Shown: in pieces, positions 789 through 53,350 of the stretch | Layout of the letters: each line of letters begins with the position of its first letter | Numbering within the stretch: position 1 is the first letter of the stretch | From: Alligator mississippiensis | Lineage: Eukaryota > Chordata > Crocodylia > Alligatoridae | Assembly: GCF_030867095.1 (NCBI RefSeq) | Contig: NC_081829.1 | Span: 54,640,491 to 54,704,490, forward strand | Length of the DNA: 64,000 bases | Direction: 5' to 3' | Notes under the pieces: generated by a model | The model's database searches: none | What the model was told of the DNA's origin: nothing | What the model saw: the letters and a program-made list of their open reading frames with translations, nothing else | Made by a program: the position numbers and the translations under genes

Positions 789-1232
789 ATACTCCCTTGA
801 GCTGTGCATTACTAGGAGTTCCATAAATGAAATTAGAAAGCTACAGTAGAGCGGTATGGCTACAGCATAAGCTTTATTGATCACACCAGTGTTATATAGG
901 TATTCCACACAGTACTTCTTACACTCCCAAAATTTTATCCCAACATGCACTGAGTTTACTGTAAAGTGTGGAATGGATCATGAAGGTCAGCCTTTTTTTC
1001 ACTGTTCCAAAGTTCTGAAGAAAAAAATGGAGTTCCCCAGAAAAATTTGTGTCACATCCTAAACTGGGGACCTGACCACATGATATCTGAGCCAGTAGGG
1101 GCATCTTAAATATTGACCCAGATCCTGACCTAAACTTTACAGCTTAGAATCCTATCTTTGCCATACAAGAACTAAGTGGTATCATTCACTATTACTAACC
1201 AAGTCTCTAACACTGTAGTCATTCCTCTAATG
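789..1232. other. AT-rich stretch without recognised feature
   Basis: No exon-like or repeat-like signal seen on either strand. Confidence 0.4.
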
Positions 1233-1416
1233 CAATGGCTTTCAACCAGTGGTTTGCAGACTCCTGGGGGTGCACAGACTGTGTCTAAGGGGTCTACAAA
1301 AGATTACTATGATCAATGGAAAGTATATGACTACCCACACTTACAAGTCAAAGGGGTCTGCACCTCCATTCAAAATTTTTTAGGGGTCCACAAATGAAAA
1401 AGTTTGAAAACCACTG
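1233..1416. mobile_element. Short hAT-type MITE (CARTGGYTTTCAA termini)
   Basis: Left end CAATGGCTTTCAACCAGTGG and right end GTTTGAAAACCACTG are inverted copies of the widespread amniote hAT terminus CAGTGGTTCTCAAC. Flanks CTCTAATG (1225-1232) and CTTAATG (1417-1423) look like an 8-bp duplication that differs by one inserted base. The body is 184 bp and has no coding capacity. Confidence 0.65.
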
Positions 1417-2320
1417 CTTAATGACCTTTTTGGTTGCTGGAAAGAAGCTTGGTAATAAATATATTAGTATTTTAGTATATAAATTAAATTTAGTCCTATC
1501 CCCATATTCTGGCACCTTGTCAGACTGTGTGCTTGACCTCATTTGAAGCTGGGCTGTTCTCTTCTAGATGTAAAATCTGGACAGCTTTAGCTTACCCAGA
1601 TAGTGTTCCTTAACACTTTGCTCCTGGTAGTGCTTAAGGTATACAATTCCTTATAAAAAAAAAAAAAGAAAATAAACTGCACATCTCTTAAGCCTTAGAT
1701 GTAACTTGGATGTCTGATTGTCTCAAGACAACCTATTGCTGAAATTCAGCATTGCTTTATTTGACTCTTGAAATCATGAGGATCACAATATTTCTGATTT
1801 TAAATAGCAATGTGCTGCCTCAAAGTGCAATATTTCACTAGTAGCCAATTACTTTTTTGCTAAAAATAGAACAAAATAATTTTCTATGCAAGCTGAACAT
1901 AGCAAAGAGTTAGCTATAACTTCATGACCTTGCATGATCTCTAAAGAAAAATGTAAGCATAAAACAGTTCAGACTGACCCTTTATTTTCAGGGCCAAGTA
2001 CTGTATGAAGTTATGCCTCACTGTGCTATCTCAGGAAGAATTCTGTGCTCCTATCTGCTCTGATGAGTGGGAGAAAGTAAGTTACTTCATCCCTTTCCTG
2101 GGATATTGCTTGTATCCTTCCACTCACACCTGGCCATTTCTCCTGGTTGAGGTATAACCAAGGCAAAACCGTTGTTTTGGCCTTTCCCTGCTTGTAAAGA
2201 ACACTGGTATATACCCTCTGTTGTCCCCCACATGTCTGAACTACCTTGCTTGGTCACATGAAGAAGCCCACCTTGATCCCTGTGTGCCAGTATTGTTGTT
2301 AGTCAAAATCTAGCTGTTAG
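1417..2320. other. AT-rich stretch without recognised feature
   Basis: Contains an A-rich run at about 1653-1668 and no other recognisable signal. Confidence 0.4.
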
Positions 2321-4341
2321 TAGGGGTGTGTGAAACAGGCCCTATTCGATTAGGATTTGGATTCGGGAAGAATTAGGGACAGTGATTCAATTCATGGTTT
2401 CATCGTTGGTAGGGTCCGAAGGGACTTGAGCAGATCATCAAGTCCAACCCCCTGCCACGGCAGGAAAAAGTACTTGGGTCAAACGACCCCGGCAAGGTGT
2501 TCATCCAGCCTCCTCTTAAAGACCCCCAGGGTAGGAGCCAGCACCACTTCTCTTGGAAGTTGGTTCCAGATCCTAGCCGCCCTGACAGTGAAGTAGCGCC
2601 TCCTGATGTCTAGTCTAAATCTACCCTCTGCCAGCTTGTGACCGTTATTTTTAGTCACTCCTGGCAGTGCTCAGGGGAACAGGGACTCCCCCAATGCCTG
2701 CTGGTCCCCCCGACCAGTTCGTAAATGGCCACTAGATCCCCCCCTCAGCCTTCTCTTTGTGGAGGCTGAACAAGTTTAGGTCCCTTAGCCTCTCCTCGTA
2801 GGGCCTGCCCTGCTGACTCCTGATCATGTGGGTGGCCCTCCTCTGGACCCTCTCCATGCTAGCCACATCTCTCCTGAAGTGCAGCGCCCAGAACCGGACA
2901 CAGTACTCCAGCTGCGGCCTGACCAGTGTCACATAGAGGGGGAGGATCACCTCCTTGGACCTGCCTGAGATGCATCTGTGGATGCATGACAAGGTACGGT
3001 TGGCCTTCCTGACCACTTCCCCACAATCAGCCCATGTTCATTTTGGCATCAATAATGACTCCAAGATCCTTTTCTGCCTCTGCACTGATGAGAAGGGAGT
3101 TCCCCAGCCTGTAGGTATGCTGCTGGTTCTTCCTCCCCAGGTGCAGTACCTTGCACTTGTCAGTGTTGAAACCCATCCTGTTCTCATCTGCCCACCCCTG
3201 TAGCCTGTCTAGGTCCAATTGCAGCCTATTCCTCCCTTCTAGCATGCCCACTTCTCCCCACATCTTAGTGTCATCTGCGAATTTGAACAGCGTGCTTTTT
3301 ACCCCCTCGTCCAAGTCGCTTATGAAGATGTTGAACAGTGCAAGCCTGAGGACCGAGCCCTGGGGGACCCCACTGCCCACATCCCTCCAGGTCGAAAATG
3401 ACCCATCCACCACCACTCTCTGGATGTGGCCCTCCAGCCAACTAGTGACCCATTTGACTGTGCAGGTGTCGATGCCACAGTCCCCTAGTTTTTTAATGAG
3501 AATCTCCCCTGCTGGCCCCTCACGGACATGCACCAGGATAACTGTCTCAAAAAGCTTACCCAAGACCAAGGTAAAACTGACTGGCCTATAGTTTCCTGGG
3601 TCCTCCTTCTTCCCTTTTTTGAAAATGGGAACCACATTGGCCCTTTGCTGATTTGTTGATTCAGATCACTGTCCCCAATTCGATTCGGCCAAACCCAAAT
3701 CTAAAGATTCAATGCTGATTCAGAGAATGAGCAATTCGGACATAGACAAAGCTTTAAATGGTTTGTCTACATACCTCAAGGTACTAGGCATGGCTCGTGA
3801 ATGCTGCAATGTTGGGGCAGATGAAGCGTCCCACAGGAGTGTGGGGGGCCCCCCTGCATGCTCGGCAGTAAACCCAGAAGTGGACCGGAAGTATTTCTAG
3901 TCCACTTCCAGGTTCTCTGCTGAGCACACTGGGGCCCCTCCACATCCCCCTGGCTCAGCAATCAGCCACAGGGGGACACCGGGTGCACCCCCCAGACCCA
4001 GGAGGCACCAGTTGCCGAACTGGAGGAGTGGGGGGGGGAGGAGGCCCAGTGCGCTCAGTGGTGGACCCATTAGTGGATCGGAAGTGCTTCTGCCAAGCAC
4101 TCTGGGGAGCCCTATGCGCTTCTGTGGGACACTCAATCCACCCCACCATCTCAGCGTTCATGAGCTGCCTGCTACCTAGAGGTATGTAGAAAAAACATTT
4201 AAGCTGTGTCTATGCCCAAATCACTGAATTTTTCTAAATCTCTCTGAATTGATTCAGAGGATTCTGATTTGAATCAATTCAGAGAGATTAAAGGGTCCTG
4301 TGATTTGATTCGGATTCAGAGATTCGGTCACTGAATCGAGC
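2321..4341. mobile_element. hAT MITE (TAGGGGTGTG family), split by a CR1
   Basis: The left terminus TAGGGGTGTGTGAAACAGGC matches the ends of the elements at 48419-49257 and 51124-57949. The halves 2321-2389 and 3649-4341 align, in inverse orientation, to the complete 839-bp copy at 48419-49257. Shared landmarks are the GGGACAGTGATT box, the CTACATACCTC segment, the paired 'agaagtggaccagaagt' motifs and the GATTCAG-rich subterminal part. The last 40 or so bases of the right end are missing; sequence leaves the family after about 4341. The interior CR1 (2390-3648) inserted later. Confidence 0.75.
2390..3648 (-). mobile_element. CR1 LINE fragment (RT C-terminal part and 3' end)
   Basis: Minus-strand CR1. 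The 3' end lies at the left, where TAGGGTCCGAAGGGACTTGA matches the 3' UTR of the other CR1s here. The minus-strand reading frame over 3635-3027 gives reverse transcriptase text: GNYRPVSFT, GVPQGSVL, the catalytic box FADDTKMWGE and CKVLHLGRKN. A second open part over 3016-2732 gives the CR1 C-terminal text (LVRPQLEYCVRFWA). The frame is broken between these parts. It is 5'-truncated near the start of the RT, as most CR1 copies are, and lies inside the hAT MITE. Confidence 0.9.
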
Positions 4342-4850
4342 CGCAGGAGGGTCTTCCCAGGCTCAGAGTCTCCTCACGGGCAGCTCCTCTCTTGTCCTGC
4401 CCTGGCAGGGCTCGGAGAGGAAGGGAGAGAGAACACATTGTTTGTGCAGCCTCTTGCTGCTACTTCTGCAGGGCTCTGACAGGGGCTCTCAGAGGGGCGG
4501 CCCTGGAGAGATCCTTTCCCTGGTCTCCAGCCTGTCTCTCACCTCCTCTCTCTCCCCTTTGTTCTCCTCCCCGGGAAAAACTGCTCCCCTCTTTTAAACA
4601 AGCCTCTCAGCCTATCCCAGACCAGGGCTCTTCCCAGGCTTTTGCTAAGGTCTCTCATTCAAACCCTGCTGAGGTTACATCACCTCTCCCACTTCCAAGA
4701 GGGCTACCTCCAAAGCAGCTTCACTGGCAGGGCAAACAGTGTCCCTGCTGGGACAAACTCTGTCTCTTCACACTCTGTCCCTCTGCAGGGCAGCCCTCCC
4801 TATTCCTTCAGGTGAGTCCATTTTTGATGCTGCTACACCTATAAAACCTC
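4342..4850. other. GC-rich, CT-rich stretch of unknown origin
   Basis: Base composition jumps at about 4342, where the hAT MITE homology stops. An open frame at 4392-4844 is Cys/Pro/Ser-rich and resembles no protein I know; I read it as chance. Possibly part of another repeat. Confidence 0.3.
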
Positions 4851-6210
4851 TGGAGTTGATCAACTTGAGGTACTTTTGGAGTGGCTGTATTTCCTATAAC
4901 ATCCACTGAAAATAGGCTGCACAATTTCCTTTTAATGCCCAGCCAGCTTCATGGTGCCGAGTAAGAACAAGGCTACAGCTCTGCCTCACCTGCTTTTGAG
5001 GGAGATGTGCTCCTGGTTAGCAAAAGAGCAACTGAAAATGTACATAGGCTCTGTTTGATATAGGCAAATGAGATAGAGTAGCTCTAGGGTGTTGTCCCAT
5101 CACCCATGTATGCTAGGTTTAAGGTCAACGTGGTCCTAGGCATTGCCATTTACTCAGTCCAACAGCTTCTTCTTCTATGACACTTGTTTATCTATTAGAT
5201 GGTAATCTTTTCAGGGCAAGGAGATTATTATTGGTTAAGTAGTAATATGTATCCTGGCATTGACTTGTGCATCAAAAAGGTATCGGCTGTACTCTTATGA
5301 GGTAGTATTATGTTCTCCATCCAGTCATGAAGCAGTTTACAACACAGTTACCTTCATCAAGTACCTCCATCTTCTGTGCACCACAAATCAATGTTCTTCT
5401 GTGTTCTAAAGATCTGCTGGAACAATGTGTCAATCAATTTTAGTGCCAATGCTTCCTTGTTCCGTGAATATCATAGACTGTCCCAACATAAAAAGGAATG
5501 GAGATGGTTTAGTGCTAGGAGCTGAATAGGATGCACACCAAATTAACATTTTAAAGTTATTCTATGTGTGACTTTTCCTACAGACTCACCTGTAACACTA
5601 AACTGGGTTTCAGATTTTTTGTCCCTTATAATTTTGTTTGTTTGACATTACCAAAACAGAGTCATAAAACTGCAGATACAAAATGACATTTAAGATAAAA
5701 TATTAAATAACTGCTTATTTGAACATTTTTCCAGTTTCCTCTGCACATCAGTTCAATAAACTTATACTTAAGTTTGAATGTAGTGTAGCTCCATTTTTGT
5801 CAATAGGGCTACTCATTTTCTTACTATTTGGCACATGCTTAAGTATCTTGCTGGAAGAGGACTGGGTGTTTTTTTAAGAGAAAAATGCTACTAAATATCC
5901 TTGTTGGGGCGAAAAAAGTTGATTTTTTTTACATAATTGCTAGATTTTGTTCTGAAAATCCATTTCATTTTTCCAAACAAAGGAAAGGAAATGCACGTGA
6001 GGGAGGAAAAAAGAAAAGCAACAACTAGGAAAAAGCAACTGCTGTTTTGAACATTAGCAGTTCGGGTGACAGAAGACCTAAAAGGCACATAGTAGCACCT
6101 TGTGCAACCTATTTACTCACCCTAGAACCTGGCAAACTATGCCAAAAATTGCCTGCCAGAGCATTCTTTTTAATTTCCTAATTTGGTCACGGCAAAGTGA
6201 TGCAAAAATC
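4851..6210. other. AT-rich stretch without recognised feature
   Basis: No exon, LINE or terminal-repeat signal seen. Confidence 0.4.
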
Positions 6211-7878: not shown

Positions 7879-7883
7879 CAGTG

Positions 7884-9166
7884 TGTGCCCGCCTCCGCTC
7901 AACCAGGCGCTCCCGGGCTGCTCTAGCCCGGGTGGCTGTTCTCACTGGCCACGAGCTCACGAGAGGGCCCCGGGAGGTGCCTCGGGTGGTGACGGGAGGC
8001 CCCCTAACCTCGTCTGCCACGACTTTGAATGTAATCTCAGTGGTGGGGGTCTCCGTTAATGCTGCCTCCCGGGGTCGTTGCGCCTTCGGCAGGCACTCAT
8101 GGGGCTCTGACCTCCCCTACACCCTGGCCAATCGCCACCCGCTGCTGCTGGTCTTCTAGTGGCCTTCCTCAGGCGGCCCCGGCGTGTTTCCGGTCCTGTG
8201 CCTCCCGGTGGTCCCCACTCCGGAGAACCAAGCTTCCCAGGCTGGAATCCACCTTGAGGGTTTCACACCCCCTGATTCCCTGCTGCCCCTAGCCTATACT
8301 GACCCGAGGCCACCGCAACACAAAATGAGAGGAGAGCCTAAAGGAAAGTGAACAACAAAACAGAAAGTCGAGCCCTTCTATCATGCCTAGCCCGGAATCT
8401 GACCTGGGTGCCTAAGCCCCGATCGACGGGCTGCCCTGGCTCAGAGTCCGTTGGGTGGCTTAAGGCCACCGACTCCCCCGGGAGTCTACTCTCCAGGACT
8501 GTGGCTCCAGCTCTCTGGAAGCCTCGTATCCGGTGTTCACTCCCTCGCCGGTCCCACTGCCGGTTCCTCCGCCGGCCCGTCTGTCAGCTCTCTCGCCAAG
8601 TCCACTGCCGGTTTCCTCACCGGCTACGCTGCCCGCTCCTTTACCGGATCCGTAGCTGGTTCCTTCTCTAGTCTTGCTGCCGACGTTGTCTCCACCTTCT
8701 CCATCGGCTCCTTTAAGAATGCAGCTCTCGCTGCTGTAGCTGCAGCTTTCTTTGCCGGCTCCTTTAAGAACGCAGCTCTCGCTGCTGTAGCTGCAGCTTT
8801 CTTCGCCGGCCCCTTTAACGGTGCGGCTCTCGCTTCTGCAGCTGCCGTTGCCGACGTCGCTGCCGTTGCCACGACTTCCCCCGTCGGGCTGGGTACACAG
8901 GCCCCGCAGGCGTGGGTCCCGCTCTCGGGGTTCCCTGCGGGCTTTCCCCACTTCTCTTCCAGCCCCGCTTCCGGGGCTGCCTTTTATCTCTGCCGGGCAG
9001 CGTCTCCCAGCCCCAGCTGCATATAAGTGCGGCTTACAAACCGCGCTGGTGGTCTCGTCATGTGCGTGTCCCTGCCTGTCCCGGCCTCTGCGTGAGGTAA
9101 GTAAATGGTTACTTCCCCCCTGGTTCAGCCCCGGGGTACCCTCCTAACCGCGGCGTCCCTGGGACA
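7884..9166 (-). repeat. 3' LTR (element sense) of Gmr1-like fossil
   Basis: 1283 bp, starting TGTGCCCGCC and ending CCTGGGACA on the plus strand. It carries two tandem 51-bp units (8706-8756 and 8757-8807) where the partner LTR has one, and lacks a 13-bp stretch of the partner near 9013. A C-rich polypurine-tract complement lies directly next to it (9167-9180). Confidence 0.9.
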
Positions 9167-9180
9167 CAACCCCCCCCTCA
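9167..9180 (-). other. Polypurine tract next to 3' LTR
   Basis: A run of eight C flanked by CAA and TCA on the plus strand is a G-rich purine run in the element's sense, directly abutting the 3' LTR as expected for plus-strand priming. Confidence 0.75.
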
Positions 9181-12100
9181 AGATGCCTTGGGGCGCTTCT
9201 TCGGACCCAGCTCGGGTCGTACCTGTCAGGCTGGTCTGTCCACTTGGCTGGTCATCTCGGCTCCCGGTCTGGTCTTCTCCGTCACACCTGGATAGGAAGT
9301 CTGCCACTGCATTATCCTTCCCTGGTCAGTGTACTATGCAAAACTTATAAGGTTGGAGTGCCAGGGCCCACCGTGTTATTTGGGCGTTATCGGTCCTGGC
9401 CGTGCTCAGCCACCTTAGCAGAACATGATCCGTTACCAATTTGAATTCTCTGCCCATCAGGTAATACCTGAAGTAGTCTACTGCCCACCGTATGGCTAAG
9501 CATTCCCGTTCTATGGTGGAGTACCTTCTCTCCGCCGGCAGCAGCTTGCGACTGGCGTACGCCACGGGCCTTTCACTGCCCCTGTCCTCCTGGGTTAAGA
9601 CGGCCCCCAACGCAGTCTCCAAGGCATCCGTCTGTAAAACGAAGGGTTTTTTGAAGTCAGGAGTGTGTATTACCACTTCCTCGCAGAGGGCTTGTTTCAG
9701 CTTTCTGAAACTCCACGTCATTTCTTCCGTCCACCTGACTACCCCTGTTTTCCGCCCTCTGAGTGCCTCTGATAAAGGCGCGGACAATACTGAGAAGCGG
9801 GGTACAAACCGCCTATAATAATTGGTGAGCACCAGGAATGATCGAAGCTGGCAACAGTTTTGCGAGGGCATAAAATTGCGGATAACCTCCACTTTATCGG
9901 CTAACGATCTGATCATGCCTCTGCCAACCAGAAACCCCAGGTATGTAGTTTCCTTCTGGGCCAGGGCACATTTTCGAGGGTTGGCTGTTAGCCCCGCCCG
10001 TCTCAATTCCGTCAGGATGGCTCGAAGGGCTCTTTTGTGCTGTACCCATGTCTGGGTATATATGACGATATCATCTATATAGGCCGCGGCATACTCGGCA
10101 TGTGGGGCCAGTATCCGATCCATCAGGCACTGAAACGTCACAGCCGCACCATGTAACCCAAAGGGCATCCTGACAAACTCGTACAGCCCCCATGGGGTGC
10201 CAAATGCCATCTTCGGCTGATCTTCTTTGGCCACCGGGATCTGCCAATACCCCTTTGCGAGGTCGAGGGTTGAGATATACTGGGCATCCCCTATTCTCTC
10301 GACTAGCTCTTCCACATGGGGCATCGGGAATGCGTCGAATGTCGCCAAGGTATTCAATCGTCTGTGGTCTATGCAGAGTCTCAATGACCCGTCAGGCTTA
10401 TGCACTGGCACTAATGGACTCCTCCAGGGGCTTCTCAACAGCCAAATGACCCCTAACCTCAGCATTGAGTCTACCTCTTTACGAACGGCTTCCAAGAGGT
10501 GGTGTGGGATGGGCCGCCACCTCTCCCTCACTATTGCTCCGGGGGGGGGTCTTTATAGCATGAACGGCATCCTGAACCCACCCGGGTTCCTCACGGAATA
10601 CGTCTCGGAATTCCTCTGCCAAATTTCGGGCCTCTTGCCTTTGTACGGGGCCCACTTCCTCTCCGATCCGGACCAAGGGGCCCCCCTTGGTGACCCTGGC
10701 CCCTCTCCCCAAACCCTGGGGTCCAAGGTCCTTGTTATCTGCTTCAGAAAAGGCCACCCACCCTTCGGGCTCCTTCCACTCTCGCAGGAGGTTCACATGG
10801 TAGATTTGCTTTTCCCGACGGTGGCCGGGCCTATGGACCTCGTAATCTACCGGTCCAACTTGTCAGAGAATTTCGAATGGCCCCTGCCATTGGGTCAGGA
10901 GCTTACTGGTGGATGTCGGGAGCAACACTAGAACCCCTTTGGCCGGGTTCAAATTCCAGTTCTCGCGTGCGGCTGTCATACCTCTCCTTTTGTCGGGCCT
11001 GGGCTTCCCTCATGTTTTCACGAGCGAGGTCCTGGGCCACCTTAATCCTTTGCTGAAACTCTCTTTGGTACGTCTGCGGCTCTTGAGAGGAGCTTCTTTC
11101 CTGTTCCCAATCTTCTCTCAAGACCTGCAACAGACCTCGTGGCCGGTGCCCTAACACTAGTTCGAATGGCGAGAACTTCATCGAGTCCTGAGGGGTATCC
11201 CTTAGGGTAAACAATACTAGCGGGAGGAGGAGATCCCACTTTCGGGGGTCCCCCTGAATGCAGCGCCGCAACACCCATTTTATTGTCCCGTTAAGGCGCT
11301 CCACTAGGCCATTAGTCTGGGGGTGGTAGACTGAGGTGCGGAGTTGTTTTATTTGTAACGTTCGGCACACGGCTCTCAAGACTCCAGACATGAAATTCCT
11401 CCCCTGGTCTGTTAATATTTCGTGCGGGATCCCCATCCTGGAGATCCATTTTACTAACTCCTCCGCAATGCGCGGGGCGGTCACCGCTCGCAAGGGGATG
11501 GCCTCTGGGTATCGGGTGGCATAATCCACCATCACTAATATGTATTGGTGCCCTGAGCTACTACGGGGAAGAGGTCCAATGACATCTAGGGCTATCCACG
11601 AGAATGGGGTGTCTATGACGGGCATAGGCTGGAGGGGTGCCCGTGCCGGACGCTCAGTTCTCATCTTCTGGCACTCGGGGCAAGCTGCACACTGGCGGGC
11701 CACTTCCTCCCCCATCCCGGGCCAAAAGAACCACCAGCTTATCCTCGCAAGGGTCTTGTCCCATCCAAGATGCCCACCCGTGAGGCTCGCGTGTGCTAAT
11801 CGCCAGATGGTTTGGTGGAATCGGGTGGGTACCACTAATTGGGAGTGTAAGGCCTCCCTCCACCACTTCCCTTGCACGCGGTAAAGGAGGTGGTTCCTTA
11901 CCTCGAAGTAGGAAGGCCCTCCTTGCGGCGGTGCTGGGATGTCTTGGGGACCCTGGGCGCACTCCTGCAACTCCCGGATCTCTGGGTCCTCTGTCTGAGC
12001 CTCCCGAAACTGTAGACAGCTGGTGAAGTTGTTGAGGTCTAGCTCGCCCGCCTCATCCGCCAATTCCTCATCCTCCTGCATTTCGCCCAGCCAACCTTCG

Positions 12101-13351
12101 CAGTCTCGGATCTTTCTACGGGCTACCTCAGTGTCCCTTACCCTGTCCAAGACATCGTACACAGGCACCCAGTCTCGCCCTAATAACATCTCACATGCTA
12201 ATCGCGGTACCACCCCAACTAGGAGTTCTCCTTGATGTTCCATCACCCTGAGGCGAACCCACTGGCGCTCGACTAGTCGGGACTCCCCATGGAGACAAGC
12301 TATCCTCACGGGGTGGGCCCCCTGCCGGCCCTGTGGCCCTACCAGATCTGACCTCACCAGTGACTAGGCACACCCTGAATCCAGGGTCGCTTGCACAGGG
12401 CGACCCTCCACCCAGGCCTTCATGACTGGGCAACTCCAGGCTGCATTCTCCTCCCCGATCGCATAGCTACAGTCCATTGGTTTGCCCGATTCCGGACCCC
12501 TCCGTTTTTCGGTTGAGGCTCTCGACCTGTCGGTAGGGATCCAGCGCTCCACCGCTTGGTTTGGGCATTCTCTAGAAAAATGGCCGTTACGGCCACACCG
12601 GAAGCACACGGTTTCCCTGGTAGCCCCCCGACTCAGCGGCTTCCGGCGCTCCGGCTCTTTGGGGCTCCCCGGGAAGTACCCTGGGCTCCGCCTCTCTCGA
12701 GGGTAGCTGGCCTCCGAGACCGTGAACGCCTCCGCCAGCTTTAGGGCTTCATTGCAGGTGCGTGGGGTGTGCTGCCGGACCCAACGTTGTGTCCATTCTT
12801 CCAGGTCGTTTTGGAACTGTTCGAGCACGATTTGATCTGCCAGGGCTTCTCGGTCCTGTCCGGCTGGGCTCACCCACTTATCTAGCAGGTCCCTCAATAG
12901 TTATAATAGCACTCTGGGTCATCTCTCGTCAGACCCCTTTTTGGCCCAGAATAGGTGACGGTAGTGCTCCGGGTTTATTTCCAGCCTGTATAGGATGGCC
13001 TGCTTCACTAGCTCGTAGTCCTGGGCATCCTCTCTCGAGAGGGCCCGATAAGCGGCCTGGGCCTTGCCAACGACCAGGGCGCCCAACTGGCTAGCCCAAC
13101 AGCTCTGATCGAGCCCTGTCATGAGGGCGTGCCGCTCAAAGGCTTCAATGTAAGCTTCCGGGTCGTCATCTTTTGGGCATCTTAAAGGAAGCTAGGCCAT
13201 GCCGAAACCAATCTTGTTGCCTACCCATCATCTGTTGTTGGGAGTCCAGGATCTGAGCTAGAACCTGTAGGTTCTGCCCCAGGACATCGACGGGGCCTGT
13301 AGCCGCGGGTTGCATGTTGGCGTAGGGATCCACGTTGGGGTCCTCCATGTT

Positions 13352-13367
13352 CCCGGCCAATGCACCA
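13352..13367 (-). other. Primer binding site for tRNA-Gly(GCC)
   Basis: Plus strand CCCGGCCAATGCACCA is identical to the 3' end (with CCA) of vertebrate tRNA-Gly(GCC) as I know it. On the element's sense strand this is a 16-nt primer site, three bases inside the 5' LTR. Confidence 0.9.
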
Positions 13368-13495
13368 CGTTGTGCCCGCCTCCGCTCGACCAGGCGCTCC
13401 CGGGCTGCTCTAGCCCGGGTGGCCGTTCTCGCTGGCCACAAGCTCACGAGAGGGCCCCGGGAGGTGCCTCGGGTGGTGACGGGAGGCCCCCTAAC

Positions 13496-13508
13496 CTCGC
13501 CTGCCACG
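13496..13508 (-). other. U5 box complementary to tRNA-Gly(GCC) anticodon arm
   Basis: Plus strand CTCGCCTGCCACG is identical to the anticodon arm of tRNA-Gly(GCC), so the element RNA is complementary to it. It lies 128 nt upstream of the primer site in element sense. The other LTR of the pair has one mismatch (8009-8021). Confidence 0.6.
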
Positions 13509-14468
13509 ACTTTGAATGTAATCTCAGTGGTGGGGGTCTCCATTAATGCTGCCTCCTGGGGTCGTTGCGCCTTCGGCAGGCACTCACGGGACTCCGACCT
13601 CCCCTACACCCCGGCCAATCGCCACCTGCTGCTGCTGGTCTTCTAGTGGCCTTCCTCAGGGGGCCCCGGCGTGTTTCCGGTCCTGTGCCTCCCGGTGGTC
13701 CCCACTCCAGAGAACCAAGCTTCCCAGGCTGGAGTCCGCCTTGAGGGTTTCACACCCCCTGATTCCCTGCTGCCCCTAGCCTATACTGACCCGAGGCCAC
13801 TGCAACACAAAATGAGAGGAGAGCCTAAAGGAAAGCGAACAACAAAACAGAAAGTCGAGCCCTTCTATCACGCCTAGCCCGGAATCTGACCTGGGTGCCT
13901 AAGCCCCGATCGACAGGCTGCCCTGGCTCAGAGTCCGTTGGGTGGCTTAAGGCCACCGACTCCCCCGGGAGTCTACTCTCCAGGACTGTGGCTCCAGCTC
14001 TCTGGGAGCCTCGTATCCGGCGTTCACTCCCTTGCCGGTCCCACTGCCGGTTCCTCCGCCGGCCCATCTGTCAGCTCTCTCGCCGAGTCCGCTGCTGGTT
14101 TCCTCACCGGCTACGCTGCCCGCTCCTTTACCGGATCCTTAGCTGGTTCCTTCTCTAGTCTTGCTGCCAACGTCGTCTCCACCTTCTCCGTCGGCTCCTT
14201 TAAGAACACAGCTCTCTCTGCTGTAGCTGCAGCTTTCTTCGCCGGCCCCTTTAACGGTGCGGCTCTCGCTGCTGCAGCTGCCGTTGCCGACGTCGCTGCC
14301 GTTGCCACGACTTCCCCCGTTGGGCTGGGTACATGGGCCCCGCGGGCGCGGGTCCCGCTCTTGGGGTTCCCTGTGGGCTTTCCCCACTTCCCTTCTGGCC
14401 CCGCTTCCAGGGCCGCCTTTTATCTCTGCCGGGCAGCGTCTCCCGCCGGCGTTGCCCGGCCCCAGCTG

Positions 14469-14551
14469 TATATAAGTGCGGCTTACAAACTGCGCTGGCA
14501 GTCTCGTCGCGCACGTGTCCCTGCCTGTCCCGGCCTCTGCGTGGGGTAAGT
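14469..14551 (+). promoter_or_regulatory. Antisense LTR promoter candidate with splice donor toward MYPN
   Basis: TATATAAG (14469-14476) is a canonical TATA box on the plus strand, opposite to the element. A start about 30 bp on would give a short exon of about 47 nt ending at a strong donor GG/GTAAGT (14546-14551). The donor is also present in the other LTR (9097-9102, GAG/GTAAGT), which has CATATAAG as TATA-like box. The next good acceptor seen downstream is that of the first MYPN coding exon (ends 15568), 1.0 kb away. Motifs are seen; use is inference. Confidence 0.4.
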
Positions 14552-14620
14552 AAATGGTTACTTCCCCCCTGGTTCGGCCCCGGGGTACCCTTCTAACCCC
14601 AGCGTCCCTGGGACACAGTG

Positions 14621-15568: not shown

Positions 15569-15630
15569 AGGCCTATATAACTCTGTGCTGTTGATGAGGC
15601 GTGGTCCTATTTGTCCTTTCTGTTGACAGC
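15569..15630 (+). other. MYPN: Probable 5'UTR part of MYPN first coding exon
   Basis: A TTCTGCTTTTCAG acceptor ends at 15568, so 15569-15630 is probably spliced leader just upstream of the ATG. A competing acceptor (pyrimidine-rich tract ending GACAG) ends at 15629 and would place the exon edge one base before the ATG. Only transcript data can choose. The true 5' untranslated exon 1 was not recognised in 1-15568 and probably lies upstream of the window. Confidence 0.5.
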
Positions 15631-16550
15631 ATGCAAGACGACAGTTTAGAAACTTCTACTTCAATATCTCAACTTCTGAGAGAGAGTTATTTAGCTGACA
15701 CTAAACATCAAGGGAACAGTGAAAGAAGTAGATCAGAACCATCTCCACACACTATCCATTATGGCAATACTTCTGGGAATTCAGATGAGGTAACTGCCCA
15801 AGATGACCTTCCAGATCTCTCTGCCTTTCTGAGCCAAGAAGAGTTAGATGAAAGTGTAAATCTGGCAAGACAAGCAATTGATCAGAATCCACCTGAAAGT
15901 AAGCAGGATGAACAACTGACATATTATCCCTCTGATCAGCTGAAAAACTCTGTGAGAAAAGTTTCAAATAAACAAGTGGCCCAGTCTACAGCTTTGCCAA
16001 CTTCAGACAATGCTCTGCACTCAAACTTCTGTCATGATCATGTCAGTGGTTCCAAGAAGAGCTCTCAGGATCTAAAGAAACAACAGCTTCCTTCTGAAGC
16101 TGAATCAAAGAAAGAATTCCTAAATAAGGCAGCAGATTTTATTGAAGAGCTTTCCTCACTTTTCAAAGCACATAATTCAGAAAGAATAAGACCTAGAACA
16201 TGCAAAAACTACAGGAGCAAACTTGATTCTAAAAACAAGGATGCTCAAAAAGGTAGCTCTAGTTTCCCAACTCTATCAGAAAACAGAGAGAGACTTTCTA
16301 TTCCAACACCTGAAGACTCTGACAATAACTCAGAGCATGCACTTGAAAAAACAGATGATCAACAAGAGGCAAACTCTGAAGCTATGAATCAATTGGCAAA
16401 CACGGAGTCAGCACCTACATCCTTCTATTCTGATGAGCCTATTGGACAACCACCACGCTTTACTCAGAAACTGAAGAGCAGGGAAGTTCCTGAAGGAACC
16501 AAAGTGCAATTGGACTGCATTGTAGTAGGAATTCCAGCACCTGAAGTCAG
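15631..16550 (+). CDS. MYPN: Myopalladin, first coding exon (residues 1-306 plus 2 nt)
   Basis: Myopalladin tethers alpha-actinin, nebulin/nebulette and the repressor CARP (ANKRD1) at the muscle Z-line and I-band. The translation starts MQDDSLETSTSISQLLRESY, which I recognise from human MYPN. Two strongly conserved blocks follow: residues 57-80 (QDDLPDLSAFLSQEELDES and on) and residues 160-192 (KKEFLNKAADFIEELSSLFK and on). From residue 274 (PPRFTQKL) the first Ig domain begins, with its first cysteine at about 296. The frame stays open upstream to a GTG at 15601, but the ATG at 15631 matches the family start. A good acceptor (pyrimidine tract then CAG) ends at 15568, which would leave a 62-nt leader in this exon; a second CAG ends at 15629. 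The donor after 16550 is GTAAAC, weak at +5. The exon ends in phase 2, splitting an Arg codon completed at 35183. Confidence 0.96.
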
Positions 16551-18536
16551 GTAAACATATTCGACTCTTGCCATTTTGCATTATGATAATGGTAGGTATA
16601 TGCTCCACCGTGCTAAAATATATTTTATGGTAATTTATAGAAGCAATTCTTGGTTTTTGGTTATTACCATTGACTAGAAATAAATCCAGCTGTCTTCTTT
16701 AAACTATCCAGAAAGTTATTGCCATTTTAATTTAAGACATTTAAGGACAATTTTTCCTTTAAATTTTAGAGCACAGTTGTTAAAGAGGCAAGTCTTCTGC
16801 AATTAAATCGCTGAGAAAGGTATTTTCAGCTTGTTCACTATGAAGATTTGCTCAGTTTCCATAAAAGAAATAATCTATGTTAATGATGATGAGTAAGAAG
16901 TAAGAAAACATTTAAATTGAAAATGTACAGGATTGCATAAGCAAGAGACTTTTTAAAATTACAAAATACGTATATCAATAAGAGATTAAAAATCCCCGCA
17001 GAGCCAGAAACACCTCAATACCAATCCAGATTCTGGCAATGATTCCTCACACTTAACTTTAGTTTCTCCATCTATAAATGTTTCAGTTAGTCACTGTTTC
17101 CACCTGCAGCTGGGGAGATATTGATGACTAAATAGGAAGTGATTGTAAAGATTTTTGGAAATTAAATATAGGTCGGGTGGGAAACGGATTATTAAAATTG
17201 TCACTTTTATCCTGGAATTCTCAGTCTTCACTGGTATTTCTAAACCTAAAACTGTTAAAATATAGATTATAGGGCATTTTTTTCTTTCAGTTATGTTGGT
17301 GTAACCATATAGACTTTGATGAGGTTGTGTCAGTGTAAATACAAGGAGAATTTGATTTGTCTTCTAAGGAAATGCTATTTACTTAATTTTCTTATTAATA
17401 ACTTTAGTATTTTAAAAAAGTAGGTTAGTTGCCTACAGTTTTCTTAGATAAATCTTAGTTGCCTTCTAAAATATATTGAAGGGCCTTTCTTGTGCCTTCA
17501 GAGTTATCATTCAACACTAGGTTTATAGCTTCCCTAGTAAGTGTCATCTTCATCAAATGAAAGGCATTCAGAGATTTCTGGGGTAAAGAATTTGTCTTCT
17601 GTGCTCTCAGTCTCACTCCCCAGTGGTTGCTATCTCTCAGAAAGAAGGAGTCCTGGCAGTATGATCCTCTGTTAAGAGGAATGGAGTGAAGAGCTACAAT
17701 TCCTTTTGTTTTGGCCAGTCTTCAACTATGGAAAATCCTTCTAAAGAGGACAAAAAGAATTTCCTCCATTTATGAGAAGCCATTCTAAATGGAGATTGTC
17801 AGGCCATTTTTGTCCCCATTGAGCCTATGCTCTCAATCCCCCAAGCTAGACCATGATTTATAGTATCACAGTGAATCTTTTGCCAGATTTGTCAGTGACA
17901 GGAATGTGAATTTCCTCCAAAGGATCTGTTAGCTGTCAATAGAAGAGGCATGGTGTTCCTAAGCTGAAACTGAAGGAAAGCATCTTACTTGGGGGCAATA
18001 ACCTTCCAGCATGTTTGTTTCTTACTCAAACTCTCTGGTCTAATTAAGAGTTTGGGGGAGGGGAGTCTTTTCTTTTCTTCATAATCTGGTTGTTGCATTT
18101 ATGTCATCCAAAATGCTAAACTGAGTTCAGACCTCTGTCTGGTAGAAGAGAAACCTGCTAGAAAGGAGAATAATAAAAGGAAAGAGATTTTCCTGAAAAC
18201 AGTAGAATGGCTATACTTCCAGCCCGTATATATTCGTTTCCTGTTCTGAAGAAGTCTCTAGCTTCTAAAAAAAGGAGTTTTTGCCTAGACATTAGAAGCC
18301 ATTTTTCCCTCTTGGATGCAAACTACCATCTTGAACTGGAATACCTACATTTAGTTTGAGAATGTTTTTCTATTCTAATAGAGTTATTCTGAGTTAAGTT
18401 ACACTGGTGTAAGTTTAAATAACACCACTGCCTTCAAAAGAAGTGGCTATTGCACACATAAATGTTGTTAAACTGGGCTCTTTTTCTGATTCCTAAGACT
18501 GTATTAAGTTAGTAGTAAAAAGAGTAGAAATGACTA
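16551..18536. other. MYPN intron, no repeat recognised
   Basis: AT-rich single-copy-looking intron. No exon-like frame or terminal repeats seen. Confidence 0.5.
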
Positions 18537-22532: not shown

Positions 22533-23509
22533 CCATAATCTTTATCCACTGCTAAATGATGGCAGAAACACACAAGGGCACATGAATAGAATATCTTATC
22601 CAGAAGCTAGCTCCAGTATTTCTGAATCTCATATATAACTGAATCTATGTAGACGTGTGGGTGAATAAACAGCATCTTTATCAGGTGAGCCAAAACTCAA
22701 ATTTTGTCCAGAGGTGGCAGGTGTTTTTAAGGGGGTTATAAATGATTTTTACATAAAACTTACTAATTTTATTTTCTACATTAAAACCATGGTAGACCTA
22801 TGTTATTCTTGTGTAAAATACAGAAACATAACTAAAAGCAGTCAAGAACATAATTCAATACTTGCAAAGAGGTATATGCGTGTCTGGTAGGGAGCAAGAC
22901 CTAACTTAAGAATTTTTCCCACGCCTGAAAATTTCTGTGGGCAGCAGTGTTTCTTCCCTTCAGGTTCCAAGGTGGGGCATAAAGCCATGCTCCCAGCCAG
23001 AAGCTACTTATGGGGAGCAGCCCACCCAGTTAAACTGAGGATGTATTCACTCCTGCCCTACTTGTTCAGAACCCATACTTTGCATCTGAACAGCTGCTCT
23101 GGTTCCTTCACTATTGAGACCAGAGTACAACTGGATTTTACTCACTATACTAGTTGCCAGCTCTGTAGCTAGGAAGAAACATTCCCTACCCCACCCAGGT
23201 ATGGCTGAGGCAGGATGGGTATATTTGCCTTCCCCACAGTAGGTTAGAGATTCGGGTTGGTTGGTATGGTGTTTGGGACAGGGTAGGGTGGGTAGGTAGC
23301 AGCGGGTAGGGATCCACAGCAGGTAGTGCATTCTGTTCCATAAGGAGCCATCTTCCCAATAAAACAGAACTGGAAGCAGGGCCTGTGGACTCTCTCCTTC
23401 ATATGCCGGATCCAGCTCTTACTCTGGCTGATTCAGGTCTGACTGCACAGGTTACGTCCTAGACCTGCCAGAGCAAGTGCTGCTGGCACTGAATCCAGCA
23501 TGTTGGGAG
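22533..23509. other. MYPN intron, unresolved
   Basis: No clear repeat ends. GGGTAGG-rich stretch at about 23270-23330. Confidence 0.35.
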
Positions 23510-25822
23510 GGTCCTGGACTGGTATTGGCAACGGGAGATGACATGATAGGGGACCTCCAGATCGGTAGCTATCTGGGAGACAGTGCTCACCTTATGATAG
23601 AATTCAACATAAGACGGCGAGTGGGTAAGGTAACTAGTAGGGTGAAAGTGCTAGACTTTAGGAAAGCTGATCTCATTGCACTCAGGCGATTAGTCAAGGA
23701 AGCACTGCAGAGTAGGAATTTTGATGGGATGGGTGCCCAAGAAGGGTGGCTGTGCCTAAAGGAAACGATCCTTTGGGCACAAAGCAAGACGATCCCCGAG
23801 CGAGGCAAAAGAGGGAAAGGGGCCAGGAGGCTTCCATGGCTGACCAGAGAAATCCAGGGCAGCCTAAGGGCCAAAAGGGGAGCACATAAAAAGTGGAAAC
23901 AGGGTGAGATCACTAAAGATGAATATACCTCCTCTGCTCGTGCTTGTAGGGAGGCAGTTAGGCGGGCCAAAGCTACCATGGAGCTGAGGATGGCAACCCA
24001 AGTAAAGGACAACAAGAAATTGTTTTTTAGATACATAGGGAGTAAAAGGAAGGCCCAGGGAGGAATAGGACCCCTGCTAAATGGACAGAAGCAATTGGTG
24101 ACAGATAGGGGGGACAAGGCTGAACTCCTCAACGAGTTCTTTGCCTCAGTGTTCCTAAGCGAGGGGCACAACAAGTCTCTCACTGGGGTTGTAGAGAGGC
24201 AGCAGCAAGGCGCCAGACTTCCATGCGTAGATCCTGAGGTGGTGCAGAGTCACTTGGAAGAACTGGATGCCTTTAAGACGGCAGGCCCGGATGGGCTCCA
24301 TCCGAGGGTGCTGAAGGCACTGGCCGACATCATTGCAGAGCCACTGGCAGGAATATTCGAACGCTCGTGGCGCACGGGCCAAGTCCTGGAGGACTGGAAA
24401 AGGGCTAACGTGGTCCCCATTTTCAAAAAGGGGAGGAAGGAGGACCTGGGCAACTATAGGCCGGTCAGTCTCACCTCCATCCTTGGTAAAGTATTTGAAA
24501 AAATTATCAAGGCTCACATTTGTGAGAGCCCGGCAGGACAAATTATACTGAGGGGAAACCAGCATGGGTTTGTGGCGGGAAGATCGTGCCTGACCAACCT
24601 AGTCTCTTTCTATGACCAGGTTACGAAACGCCTGGACACAGGAGGAGGGGTGGATGTCGTATACCTGGACTTCAGGAAGGCCTTCGATACGGTATCCCAC
24701 CCCTTACTGGTGAACAAATTAAGAGGCTGTGATGTGGATGACTGTACAGTCCGGTGGGTGGCGAATTGGCTAGAGGGTCGCACCCAAAGAGTCGTGGTAG
24801 ATGGGTCGGTCTCGACCTGGAAGGGTGTGGGCAGTGGGGTCCCGCAGGGTTTGGTCCTTGGACCGATACTCTTTAATGTCTTCATCAGCGACTTGGACGT
24901 GGGAGTGAAATGTACTCTGTCCAAGTTTGCAGATGACACAAAGCTATGGGGAGAAGTGGACACGCCGGAGGGCAGGGAACAGCTGCAGGCAGACCTGGAT
25001 AGGCTGGACAAGTGGGCAGAAAACAACAGGATGCAGTTCAACAAGGAGAAATGCAAAGTGCTGCACCTAGGGAGGAAAAATGTCCAGCAAACCTACAGCC
25101 TAGGGAATGACCTGCTGGGTGGCACAGAGGTGGAAAGGGATCTTGGAGTCCTAGTGGACTCCAAGTTGAACATGAGCCAGCAGTGTGACGAAGCCATCAG
25201 AAAAGCCAATGGCACTTTATCGTGCATCAGCAGATGCATGACAAATAGGTCCAGGGAGGTGATACTTCCCCTCTATAGGGCGTTGGTCAGACCGCAGTTG
25301 GAGTACTGCGTGCAATTCTGGGCGCCACACTTCAAGAAGGATGCGGATAACCTGGAGAGGGTACAGCGAAGGGCAACTCGTATGGTCAAGGGCCTGCAGA
25401 CCAAGCCCTATGAGGAGAGACTAGAGAAACTGGACCTTTTCAGCCTCCGCAAGAGAAGGTTGAGAGGCGACCTTGTGGCTGCCTATAAGTTCATCACGGG
25501 GGCACAGAAGGGAATTGGTGAGGATTTATTCACCAAGGCGCCCCCGGGGGTTACAAGAAACAATGGCCACAAGCTAGCAGAGAGCAGATTCAGACTGGAC
25601 ATTAGGAAGAACTTCTTCACAGTTCGAGTGGCCAAGGTCTGGAACAGGCTCCCAAGGGAGGTGGTGCTCTCCCCTACCCTGGGGGTCTTCAAGAGGAGGT
25701 TAGACGAGTATCTAGCTGGGGTCATTTAGACCCAGCACTCTTTCCTGCTTATGCAGGGGGTCGGACTTGATGATCTATTGAGGTCCCTTCCGACCCTAAC
25801 ATCTATGAATCTATGAATCTAT
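23510..25822 (+). mobile_element. CR1 LINE, 5'-truncated, with intact 750-codon frame
   Basis: An uninterrupted frame runs from 23477 to 25729; its first codons are flank. CR1 text starts at the C-terminal end of the endonuclease (GDLQIGSYLGDSAHLMIEF). A central linker follows, then the reverse transcriptase: GLHPRVLKALAD, NYRPVSLTSILGKVFEK, QHGFVAGRSCLTNL, VYLDFRKAFDTV, VPQGLVLGPILFN, the catalytic FADD at residues 484-487, and CKVLHLGRKN. The CR1 C-terminal domain (LVRPQLEYCVQFWAPHF to VFKRRLDEYLAGVI) closes it. The 3' UTR ends in ATCTATGA repeats (25801-25822). Only the 5' part, including most of the endonuclease, is lost, so this copy cannot move alone but is recent. Confidence 0.95.
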
Positions 25823-37866: not shown

Positions 37867-38740
37867 CTCGACATGCTCTTTGATGACCAAACAGTCATGC
37901 TCGACCATCACATACCTCTCTCCTGTGGACTCAGCTTCCAGGTGGCATAGGCTATGGGCCAGAGAACTCCATTAACTTCTTGCGAAAGAACAGTGCCAAA
38001 TGCTCTATCCAAGGCATCCGTCTGTAGGGTAAAAGGTGATTCCAAGTCCGGAGTCTCCAACACTGCCTCATGACAGAGGGCTTCTTTGTCTTCTTGAATG
38101 CCTGCCTTATTCCCTGCATCCCATTTAAGGGGGCCCTTACTCTTCCTTTGCAGTAAGTCAGTTAAGGGCGCTGCGATTTCTGCAAACTGGGGTATAAATC
38201 GATGATAATACCCTGCTAGACCTAAGAACACCCTCAGCTGTTTGCAGTTCTGGCAGGGATTATAATTACACAAGGCTTCTACCTTGTCAGCTAACAGGCA
38301 AATATGTCCCTGACCTACCATAAACCCTAGGTATTTCATCTCTGCCTTACCCAGGACACATTTCTTTGGGTTGGCTGTGAGCCCAGCTTGGCATAATTCT
38401 TGCAGCACTGCCTTAACTGCTTCTAGGTGCTCCTCCCAACCTTGCATATAAATAATAATATTGTCTATGTATGCGGCCGGCGTATTATTGATGTGGGGCC
38501 AACACCCACTCGATTAACCTTTGAAAGGTAGCTGCCACCCCATGTAGCCCGAAAGGCATCCATCTAAATTCATACAAGCCCCACAGTGTCAAATGCCATC
38601 TTGGCTCTATCTTCCCTCCACAGTGGCACCTGCCAATACACTTTTGCCACATCCGGGGTTGAGATAAGCCTGGTCTGTTCCACTTTTTCCAGCAGCTCAC
38701 TAATCTGAGGCATGGGAAAAGCATCAAATTGCAATATGGC

Positions 38741-39855
38741 TGTGACAGGGGGCCTCCCGGGGCCGAGCTCTGTGGCCCGCCCGCCTGTCGCCATGACAGC
38801 AGGCCTACTCAGGGCCAAGCTCTTCATGGCCCACCCACCTGTCTCTGGGCAACCGCCCGCTCATCTCGCCCGCCACGCCTTTGATGATAATCAGTTCAAT
38901 TAAGATGATAATTAAGCGGGAGGCTGCCCTTCGACTGCCCCGATGCCCAGGGGCGCTCTGCGGCTCCGACCTCCCCTAATACCGCAGCCCAAGCCTCGCA
39001 GATGGCATCATGGTGTTCTTCCTCACCGGCCCCCGCACTGGGCCCCAGAATCTTCTATGCAAGACCCCACTATGGTCTTCTCTACTCAGGCGGCCACTCC
39101 GCCGTCATCTAGGCTACCTCACCCTCCCGAAGCCTTGTTCCCCTCTCGAGTGTGGTTCCCCTGGAACCTTCGGCTACCTAGCCCTGGCCCACCTCAAGGC
39201 CAGTCGGGACCCCAGGCCCCCGGCTCTTGGGCGTCCCTCGCGGTGGGCCCCCGGCCCTTTTGACCCTCACTGGTCCTGGCCCCAGCATGGGCCAGTCAAG
39301 GGAACTCTCCCCTTCGGGCTGGGTCTTTCTAGCCACTCACTCTACTCCTTGGGCCTCACCGTGCCACTACTCCCTTCCTCCTAGGAGCAACCGCGGCACC
39401 TCGCCCACCTTACTCCCACTCTCGGGGTCCGCCCTCTCTGGGCCCCTCAGAAACACTGGCCCTCTCGGCCCTCATCCAACTCAGGGGTCACCCACCCGGT
39501 GGTGGTGGGAGCTAGGGGTTAAGGCGCCCCGACCCGCCTTTCATTGGGGTGATCACTGGCCTGGCATTTCCTGGGGGCTCCCGCACCACTGAGAGCCCCA
39601 CCAGACCACCCACTCCCGGCAGGGTGCAGTTTCAGGTCATGCCCAGGACCAGGAGCCTCCTGCCAACCCCTTGCAGCTCCCCCTTACCTCCGGGTCATTC
39701 ACAGCAGCCCTAAGGCCAGGCGATGTTGCTGCCTGCTCTCCTGCAGCCAAACTGCCTGGTTTATGTAGGCCCCAAAATGGCTGCCCTAATCAGGCACCTG
39801 GAGGCTGCCAGCTCCAGGCCCTTAAAGTGGCAGGAGCACCCTGTGCTCCGCCACA
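38741..39855 (-). mobile_element. Solo gypsy-type LTR nested in the RT region
   Basis: 1115 bp beginning TGTGACAGGG and ending TCCGCCACA, flanked by an exact 5-bp duplication ATGGC (38736-38740 and 39856-39860). It splits the coding region of the second fossil between conserved RT motifs. It contains the tRNA-Gly-like box TCTCGCCCGCCACGC (38864-38878) 123 bp from its left edge, which suggests the same family and orientation as the LTRs at 7884 and 13371. Confidence 0.85.
38864..38878 (-). other. U5 box complementary to tRNA-Gly(GCC) anticodon arm
   Basis: TCTCGCCCGCCACGC, 14 of 15 identical to the tRNA anticodon arm, 123 bp from the LTR edge. Confidence 0.5.
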
Positions 39856-42800: not shown

Positions 42801-42882
42801 GCTGGATAGGGTCTGCTCTGGCTGCTGCCGCTGCCATCGAGACCTCCATATAGTCAGCTTCCCCTCGGCCATCATCAGTCTT

Positions 42883-42898
42883 CCCGGCCAATGCACCA
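42883..42898 (-). other. Primer binding site for tRNA-Gly(GCC), second fossil
   Basis: Plus strand CCCGGCCAATGCACCA, identical over 16 nt to the site at 13352-13367. Confidence 0.88.
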
Positions 42899-43016
42899 CT
42901 TAGTCATGATATGACTTGTATGGACGTGGGCCTTTACATCCTGTTGACATTCACTGGTTTCCCTCTTTCAAGGCCGGTGCTGGCCAACGCAAATGAGTCA
43001 GTCTTCCTCTCTATTA

Positions 43017-43030
43017 TCTCACCTGCCACG
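43017..43030 (-). other. U5 box complementary to tRNA-Gly(GCC) anticodon arm
   Basis: Plus strand TCTCACCTGCCACG, one mismatch to the tRNA over 14 nt, 118 nt from the primer site. Confidence 0.5.
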
Positions 43031-43471
43031 ATTTTGAGGACCTAATTAATGGATGGAGGGGTGATGACTCCCTAACCCAGTGTTGGCTGTCACCTGCCCA
43101 GTGCCGGACCCACTATACTCAATGAAACAAAACTTCTTGGCATAAGAAGCAAAATTACAGGAAACTTGCCATCCGTCCAGTGGTGCCTCTCCCAGCTGCA
43201 GGGGACTCAGATGCAGGCTCTCCCTTCCCAGTTCCTTTATCCATAAATGCTTGATCGCTGAAGCTGCGATCAAATGTTTCCTTCTCCTTTTTATTTTTCT
43301 TCAGTAATTGATGCTGCACTGGCTTAATTGACTGCACACAGCAGCCAATTATTGCAGGAGTGCCGGCTTCCCCTGAGGATGTGAGTTCCTCCAAACTCTC
43401 AAGACCATGCAGGTCTACAGCCCACCTGATTGGCTCCGGGGGGTCTACCTGAGCATTGGATCTGGGAGCAG

Positions 43472-50601: not shown

Positions 50602-51115
50602 TACTGCGTGCAATTTTGGGCGCCGCACTTCAAGTAGGATGTGGATAACCTGGAGAGGGTCCAGAGAAGGGCCGCTTGTATGGTTAAGGGCTTGCAGGCC
50701 AAGCCCTATGAGGAGAGACTGGGGCACCTGGACCTCTTCAGCCTCTGCAAGAGAAGGCTGAGAGGCAACCTTGTGACTACCTATAAGTTCATCACGGGGG
50801 CACAGAAGGGAATTAGTGAGGCTTTACTCACCAAGGCGCCCCCGGGGCTTACAAGAAATAATGGCCACAAGCTAGCAAAGAGCAGATTTAGAATGGACAT
50901 TAGGAAGAACTTCTTCACAGTTAGAGTGGCTAAAGTCTGGAATGGGCTCCCAAGGGAGGGTGGTGCTCTCCCTTACCCTGGGGGTCTTCAAGAGGAGGTT
51001 AGACAGGCATCTAGCTGGCATCATCTAAACCCAGCACTCTTTCCTGCTTATGCAGGGGGTCAGACTCGATGATCTTTTGAGGTCCCTTCCGACCCTAACA
51101 TCTATGAATCTATGG
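50602..51115 (+). mobile_element. CR1 LINE 3' fragment
   Basis: Starts inside the C-terminal domain (YCVQFWA region) and reads NLERVQRRAACMVKGLQAKP, DLFSLCKRRLRGNLVTTYKF and ITGAQKG in the frame over 50641-51072, which goes out of frame near the end. The 3' UTR ends in ATCTATGAATCTATGG. Close in sequence to the 23510 copy. The large hAT element begins eight bases after its tail. Confidence 0.92.
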
Positions 51116-52977: not shown

Positions 52978-53350
52978 GCTCCCGTGCCAGGAAAAACTTG
53001 GAGGTATGGCCTGGGGCATGGGGAAGGAGGAGGCCCCAGGTCCTGGGCATAACCTCTAAAACTGCACTCTGCCAGGGTTGGGAGGCCTGGTGGGACTGCC
53101 AGCGGCACAGTAGCCTCAGGAAATGCCAGGATTGAGAATCTGCCTGGTGAAAGGTGGGCAGGAGGCATCATAACCTCCAGCCACCATACACACACACACA
53201 GTCCTGAGGCTTGCTGGTTGCAGTGGAGTTGTCAAGCTGTAGGTAAACTCAGCTTAGTTGCCTGGGATGCCAGCTTTTGGGCTGAAAAACCCTTCAACAG
53301 GCTAAGGAAGCACCTGCAGCTGGCGTGTGTGTGCTCTTCCTGGATGGAAT

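Follow-up and report, generated by a model that had tools for sequence, protein, structure and literature searches.

Four LTR lineages in the window, by which we mean the whole 64,000-nt stretch of DNA analysed here, share a 20-nt box that reads TCAAAGTCGTGGCAGGCGAG in element sense. As far as four LTRs can tell, this 20-mer is far better conserved than its surroundings. Most of it is complementary to the anticodon arm of tRNA-Gly(GCC), the same tRNA whose 3' end fits the primer binding sites of the two fossil elements concerned. Since shuffled sequences rarely reach such a match, and since only Gly-GCC exceeds 8 nt among the 24 tRNAs compared, the tie between the box and the primer tRNA looks real at the level of sequence. 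We tentatively favour the reading that the box is an extended primer contact, in which the anticodon would be read in an HIV-like manner.

Two fossil elements and their LTRs

Both elements and all the LTRs compared here lie on the minus strand. Element 1 (7884-14615) is decayed and runs from LTR to LTR between copies of the 5-bp target duplication CAGTG, which were found at 7879-7883 beside the 3' LTR (7884-9166) and at 14616-14620 beside the 5' LTR (LTR1, 13371-14615). The two LTRs differ at 60 of 1232 aligned positions (gaps left out), which amounts to about 0.5 substitutions in every 20 nt after insertion, and the variation still seen in the box is likely to stem in part from decay of the fossils. 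The coding pieces of element 1 (9326-12900) comprise gag, with a SCAN-like capsid and a zinc knuckle, followed by integrase and then RT-RNase H, in several broken frames. Element 2 was taken from about 37908, with the far and near ends of its LTR (L2) as working limits, and its coding pieces (37908-42118) encode a zinc knuckle, protease, integrase and RT, interrupted by the solo LTR S38.

Seven pieces of elements 1 and 2 were scanned with Pfam. On the minus strand, the matches followed the order SCAN/zinc knuckle, H2C2 with rve, and RVT_1 with RNaseH in element 1, and zinc knuckle/protease, H2C2 with rve, and pieces of RVT_1 with RNaseH in element 2. The SCAN-like capsid of element 1 matched PF02023 (E 3.3e-13; the capsid region of element 2 lay outside the scan), and the short first gag piece of element 1 at 13166-13360 gave no Pfam match. 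Both elements are Gmr1-order Ty3/gypsy fossils, with integrase ahead of RT-RNase H. When the integrase piece was compared with proteins, 1490 of 7987 scored candidates passed; among the matches listed (taxa from the best 120 of the 1490), relatives were found in Alligator, turtles, frogs and fishes including Gadus morhua, and some of the vertebrate relatives listed had SCAN domains.

The primer binding sites for tRNA-Gly that the preliminary description assigned to both fossils were recovered at 13350-13367 in element 1, starting 3 nt beyond the LTR end, and at 42881-42898 in element 2. Each matches the 3' end of tRNA-Gly, including CCA, at 18 of 18 positions, and the nineteenth nucleotide mismatches at both sites. 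ARAGORN classifies the tRNA sequence used for comparison as tRNA-Gly(gcc). The last 18 nt of Gly-CCC are presumably the same as those of Gly-GCC, so that the primer site is blind to the difference, whereas the mismatch between the box and Gly-CCC sits in the anticodon itself.

The solo LTR S38 (38741-39855) has the target duplication ATGGC and sits in the RT region of element 2; this nesting gives the order in time of the two insertions. The 3' end of a further LTR, S55 (55637-56700), was set by its TGT...ACA-type end, 56700 being a working limit, and no target duplication was found for it. Tandem repeats at 55935-56517 lie inside or adjoin S55. The preliminary description counted five LTRs with a box. 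All five boxes stand, but they represent four independent witnesses (LTR1, S38, L2 and S55), since those starting at 8009 and 13496 belong to the two LTRs of element 1, which share the CAGTG duplication. An S38-like LTR fragment on the opposite strand (52991-53186), whose match to S38 ends in U3 and gives way to a CR1-like piece, was left out of the four. It is boxless, the closest box-like 20-mer on that strand between 52.9 and 55.6 kb having 8 mismatches.

Two further kinds of open frame were seen in the window. A 765-aa frame at 23432-25729 belongs to a CR1-type retrotransposon, and related pieces lie at 2390-3494, 50602-51124, 53344-55220 and 61514-62520. Together with the Alligator and turtle proteins among the integrase matches, the CR1-like copies point to a sauropsid host. 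A 318-aa frame at 15598-16554 ends in an immunoglobulin-like stretch. It resembles palladin or myopalladin and is perhaps a host exon.

Related DNA was also searched for in viral contigs and GTDB genomes. In the viral contigs, the exact 20-mer, the exact primer-site pattern and the exact pattern of box plus primer site gave no match, and neither did a protein-guided scan with the integrase piece. A loosened 20-mer found 10 stretches there, none of the ten followed by a tRNA-Gly primer site within 220 nt (the best had 3 mismatches in 12), and these were taken as chance. An alignment of 22 integrase sequences yielded 19 candidates in the viral contigs, none of them confirmed, and a protein-guided scan of GTDB with the RT piece yielded 10 candidates, again with none confirmed. 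With the same integrase alignment, 10 of 30 GTDB candidates were confirmed as loci. No sauropsid element was found in the viral contigs and GTDB genomes scanned. The one of the 10 confirmed loci that was examined, L001, has an unbroken gag-pol frame of Gmr1 order (845-5275) on a contig assigned to a Candidatus Thiodubiliella MAG, and is probably animal host DNA within the symbiont MAG. With LTRs that are absent or truncated, and with no Gly primer site found, L001 is no test of the box.

The conserved 20-mer and its match to tRNA-Gly(GCC)

The 20-mer lies at 13496-13515 in the 5' LTR of element 1, where 13496-13508 are complementary to standard positions 27-39 of tRNA-Gly(GCC), and at 8009-8028 in the 3' LTR, with one mismatch that breaks one pair. 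In S38 (38865-38884) and in the 5' LTR of element 2 (43018-43037), the sole difference within the tRNA part would be a G-U pair and a U-G pair, respectively. The copy in S55 lies at 55722-55741; the exact tRNA match there covers 55718-55732 (15 nt) and is followed by one broken pair. The five matches described earlier, starting at 13496 (13/13), 8009 (12/13), 38864 (14/15), 43017 (13/14) and 55718 (15/15), were thus all found again at their places.

When the 20-mers of each LTR were scanned against the three other LTRs, the same 20-mer was the best in every LTR, with 5-9 summed mismatches. The next best windows had 15-18, and 60 dinucleotide-shuffled sets gave best values of 15-19 (with S55 as the only reference). 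All the conservation data come from four fossil LTR lineages within one 64-kb window. The preliminary description had named conservation above the LTR background as a check on the box, and the outcome favours it: pairwise identity among the four LTRs is 16-19 of 20 in the 20-mer, compared to 29-48% of aligned positions in the flanking 60+60 nt. Outside the 20-mer, element 1 and S38 are about half identical (132/271). The box had been described as a match to the anticodon arm, which holds for 13-14 nt; the conserved unit, however, is 20 nt long and includes TCAAAGT, seven bases that have no tRNA counterpart and are left unexplained by the match. TCAAAGT is conserved at 5-7 of 7 positions in pairwise comparison, and the tRNA part at 11-12 of 13. 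A second block, TAGGGGAGGTCGGAGCC in S38 in element sense, is common to LTR1 (about 13590-13606), S38 (38962-38978) and, more weakly, S55 (55839-55856), about 75-100 nt upstream of the box. It is not tRNA-Gly-like, and element 2 has no counterpart at that place.

The exact complement to tRNA-Gly(GCC) is 13 nt long, or 14 nt with the next A, which is present in three of the four lineages. It takes in the anticodon stem's 5' strand and all seven bases of the loop, plus a single further base (standard positions 27-39, numbered with the anticodon at 34-36); it extends by one base in three lineages and further in S55, and does not continue into other tRNA arms. Over the 64 kb, on both strands, all 24 start positions of exact tRNA-Gly(GCC) matches of at least 11 nt fall in primer sites or boxes. 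Moreover, only 7 of 300,000 shuffled 20-mers reached at least 13 nt on either strand (about 2 in 100,000). This shuffle exchanged single letters of a 20-mer that was picked once the match was known, and the rate presupposes that the 20-mer was picked first; the finding was picked by a reader from 64 kb, and the figure is not decisive.

The specificity of the match was compared among 24 human tRNAs. The longest match was 14 nt for Gly-GCC and 8 nt for Gly-CCC, and the other 22 reached at most 7 nt; over the 13 nt, one mismatch separates Gly-CCC from a full match, and two separate Asp-GTC from it. The predicted duplex energy was -30.5 kcal/mol for Gly-GCC, followed by -23.8 for Gly-CCC and -22.7 for Asp-GTC and Glu-CTC, a margin of about 7-8 kcal/mol over the other tRNAs. 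For the five boxes, the predicted duplexes with the tRNA range from -23.4 to -34.1 kcal/mol, the cost of opening tRNA and leader being excluded from these energies, and in four of the five the energy lies below all 200 shuffles, the exception being the 3' LTR of element 1. Of the four differences from the exact complement, those in S38 and L2 preserve pairing as G-U, and those in S55 and in the 3' LTR of element 1 each cost a pair. The box of element 1 is predicted to be partly open, and 9 of the 13 bases in that of element 2 are predicted to pair in a local hairpin.

The gaps between primer site and box agree with those claimed before, at 128 nt in element 1 and 118 nt in element 2. From the 3' end of the box to the LTR end, the distance is 125 nt in LTR1, 124 nt in S38, 118 nt in L2 (presuming an LTR end at 42900) and 85 nt in S55. 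In LTR1, S38 and S55, neither AATAAA nor ATTAAA was found within 400 nt of the box, so that R could not be bounded; U3, the cap site and U5 are all candidate places for the box, which the preliminary description had put in U5.

Possible roles of the box

If the box is an extended primer contact, the primer site would hold the 3' end of the tRNA while the box would open and bind the anticodon stem and loop. Such pairing would keep the tRNA on the element RNA and read its anticodon, and Gly-GCC would then be favoured over Gly-CCC, which the primer site cannot tell apart. For this, the pairing would have to form and to matter for reverse transcription, and the box would have to be transcribed from the 5' LTR, close to the primer site as in HIV, and not solely as part of the 3'-terminal U3 as in Ty3. 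We infer function from complementarity throughout. In support of the contact, a second site is complementary to the anticodon of the primer site's own tRNA. Against it, the spacing in S55 is only 85 nt, no covariation was found, and no family with another primer occurred among the sequences reached. The two broken pairs, the predicted local hairpin in element 2, the only partly open box of element 1 and the failure of its 3' LTR copy to beat the shuffles also count against the contact. The preliminary description had suggested that the box holds the primer tRNA; the link to tRNA-Gly(GCC), with a better fit than that of 23 other tRNAs, supports this in part, but TCAAAGT does not follow from it. 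Since TCAAAGT is as conserved as the tRNA part, primer pairing alone leaves the block unexplained. These seven non-tRNA bases, being equally conserved, require either a second function or a role at the DNA level, and next to a primer contact TCAAAGT would need a further role, for instance in a promoter.

The chief rival places the whole box at the DNA level, as a promoter element, and we consider it rather unlikely. The 20-mer would either be a binding site for a transcription factor or separate a TATA-like stretch from the cap site, and the tRNA complement would be due to chance. In all five copies, the 15 nt that immediately precede the 20-mer are AT-rich (60-87% A+T, compared to LTR averages of 36-48%), and S55 has TATATAAAA at this place in element sense. 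Furthermore, conservation runs on through TCAAAGT, outside the tRNA match, and TCAAAG resembles a TCF/LEF core. With a TATA-like stretch upstream, transcription would start near the 3' end of the box, which would then lie at the U3/R border rather than in U5. However, a promoter element needs the coincidence of about 2 in 100,000, and with the primer's own tRNA among 24. A TATA-like hexamer near the box was found in S55 only and in none of the other copies, and element 2 has further windows nearby whose A+T content equals or exceeds that of the stretch upstream of the box.

Two signals of other kinds were considered for the box and rejected. As for a splice donor, only L2 reads CAG/GTGAG, which is probably CpG decay of GCGAG. 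As for a Pol III promoter, the anticodon arm is neither an A nor a B box.

The preliminary description offered, as its own alternative, an old tRNA-derived segment that is kept in the LTRs with no present pairing function. Such a segment would account for the 13-15 nt antisense match to tRNA-Gly, and LTRs with tRNA-like sequence are known, as in Helenus (PMC10886601). The alternative is weakened and appears improbable, since the match ends at tRNA position 39 with no other tRNA arm adjoining the box, ARAGORN and Rfam found no tRNA in the whole window, and a neutral remnant is not expected to outlast its flanks. Primer read-through was rejected as the origin of the box; it would presumably land downstream of the primer site, not upstream, and the box is on the wrong side.

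It is quite improbable that the box serves, or once served, as a primer site for tRNA halves cleaved at the anticodon, like the sites of copia and Ty5, and became trapped in the LTR when a site further downstream came into use. The match over positions 27-39 is presumably close to the stretch used by the primer site of copia, the integrase/RT order of Gmr1 is the same as in copia, and the invariant TCA just upstream could, speculatively, be an old LTR end. However, the LTR end of element 1 is fixed by the target duplication and by the 18/18 primer site 3 nt beyond it, and that of S38 by its target duplication, so that half-tRNA priming at the box could not make today's LTR. As a working half-tRNA primer site the box is excluded, lying inside the LTR in elements that both have standard primer sites. 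Finally, the box could be a target of host tRNA-Gly 5' fragments that silence the element, since its complement is the 3' end of 5' tRNA-Gly halves, fragments that are plentiful in vertebrates; this is very improbable, since such a target should tend to disappear from an element, yet the box outlasts its surroundings.

Should Gmr1-like elements have a long and near-invariant second primer contact with the anticodon of their primer tRNA, primer choice would be checked twice and isoacceptors that look alike to the primer site would be told apart, and a mechanism best known from HIV would turn out to be ancient and common among vertebrate Ty3/gypsy elements; we regard this as possible rather than probable. 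The choice of tRNA by LTR elements is debated even for HIV, and additional primer contacts are hard to prove or to establish unambiguously, as stated in a review (PMC3185550). A strongly conserved 13-14 nt complement of the anticodon arm allows a comparative test across vertebrates, namely whether the box changes with the primer. If the box does not follow the primer, the 20-mer would be a strong candidate for a promoter element in LTRs that are otherwise almost unalignable in this window.

Comparison with known systems

Elements 1 and 2 resemble Gmr1-like vertebrate elements in the SCAN-like gag and in having integrase ahead of RT. No description of such a box in Gmr1-like elements was found in the literature titles and beginnings of abstracts searched, which does not establish its absence from print, and the main texts searched on vertebrate Gmr elements make no mention of primer binding, tRNA or PBS. 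The match here differs from the tRNA-derived sequence of Helenus-like LTRs in being antisense and confined to the anticodon arm, and neither a tRNA nor an Rfam match was found in the window.

With copia and Ty5, the box shares complementarity to the anticodon stem-loop of a tRNA; in those elements, the complementary site is the primer site itself and adjoins the LTR, whereas the box lies 85-125 nt inside the LTR (PMC10886601, PMC5371799). Moreover, a standard primer site is present in both elements here that keep an internal region.

In HIV-1, tRNA-Lys3 binds the 18-nt primer site and also pairs through its anticodon with RNA lying upstream of that site, and the order of the sites along both RNAs is the same as here (PMC7793103, PMC11181671). 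When the contact bases were changed, reverse transcription products in infection fell about twofold and extension in vitro increased, and matching these bases to another tRNA helped the virus to keep that tRNA (same sources). The contact is itself disputed (PMC3185550, PMC7793103). The box differs in its predicted 13-14 contiguous pairs, which would take in the 5' strand of the stem and the whole loop, and in lying 118-128 nt away from the primer site. The gap between anticodon contact and primer site in HIV is much shorter.

Ty3 is likewise a Ty3/gypsy element with a second primer contact, and the box may also lie in U3, as the second part does in Ty3; the second part of Ty3, however, contacts the T-psi-C arm and is about 4800 nt away, whereas the box matches the anticodon arm (PMC5371799 for Ty3). 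If the box lies in U3, Ty3, with its second contact in the 3' U3, would by analogy be the nearer model.
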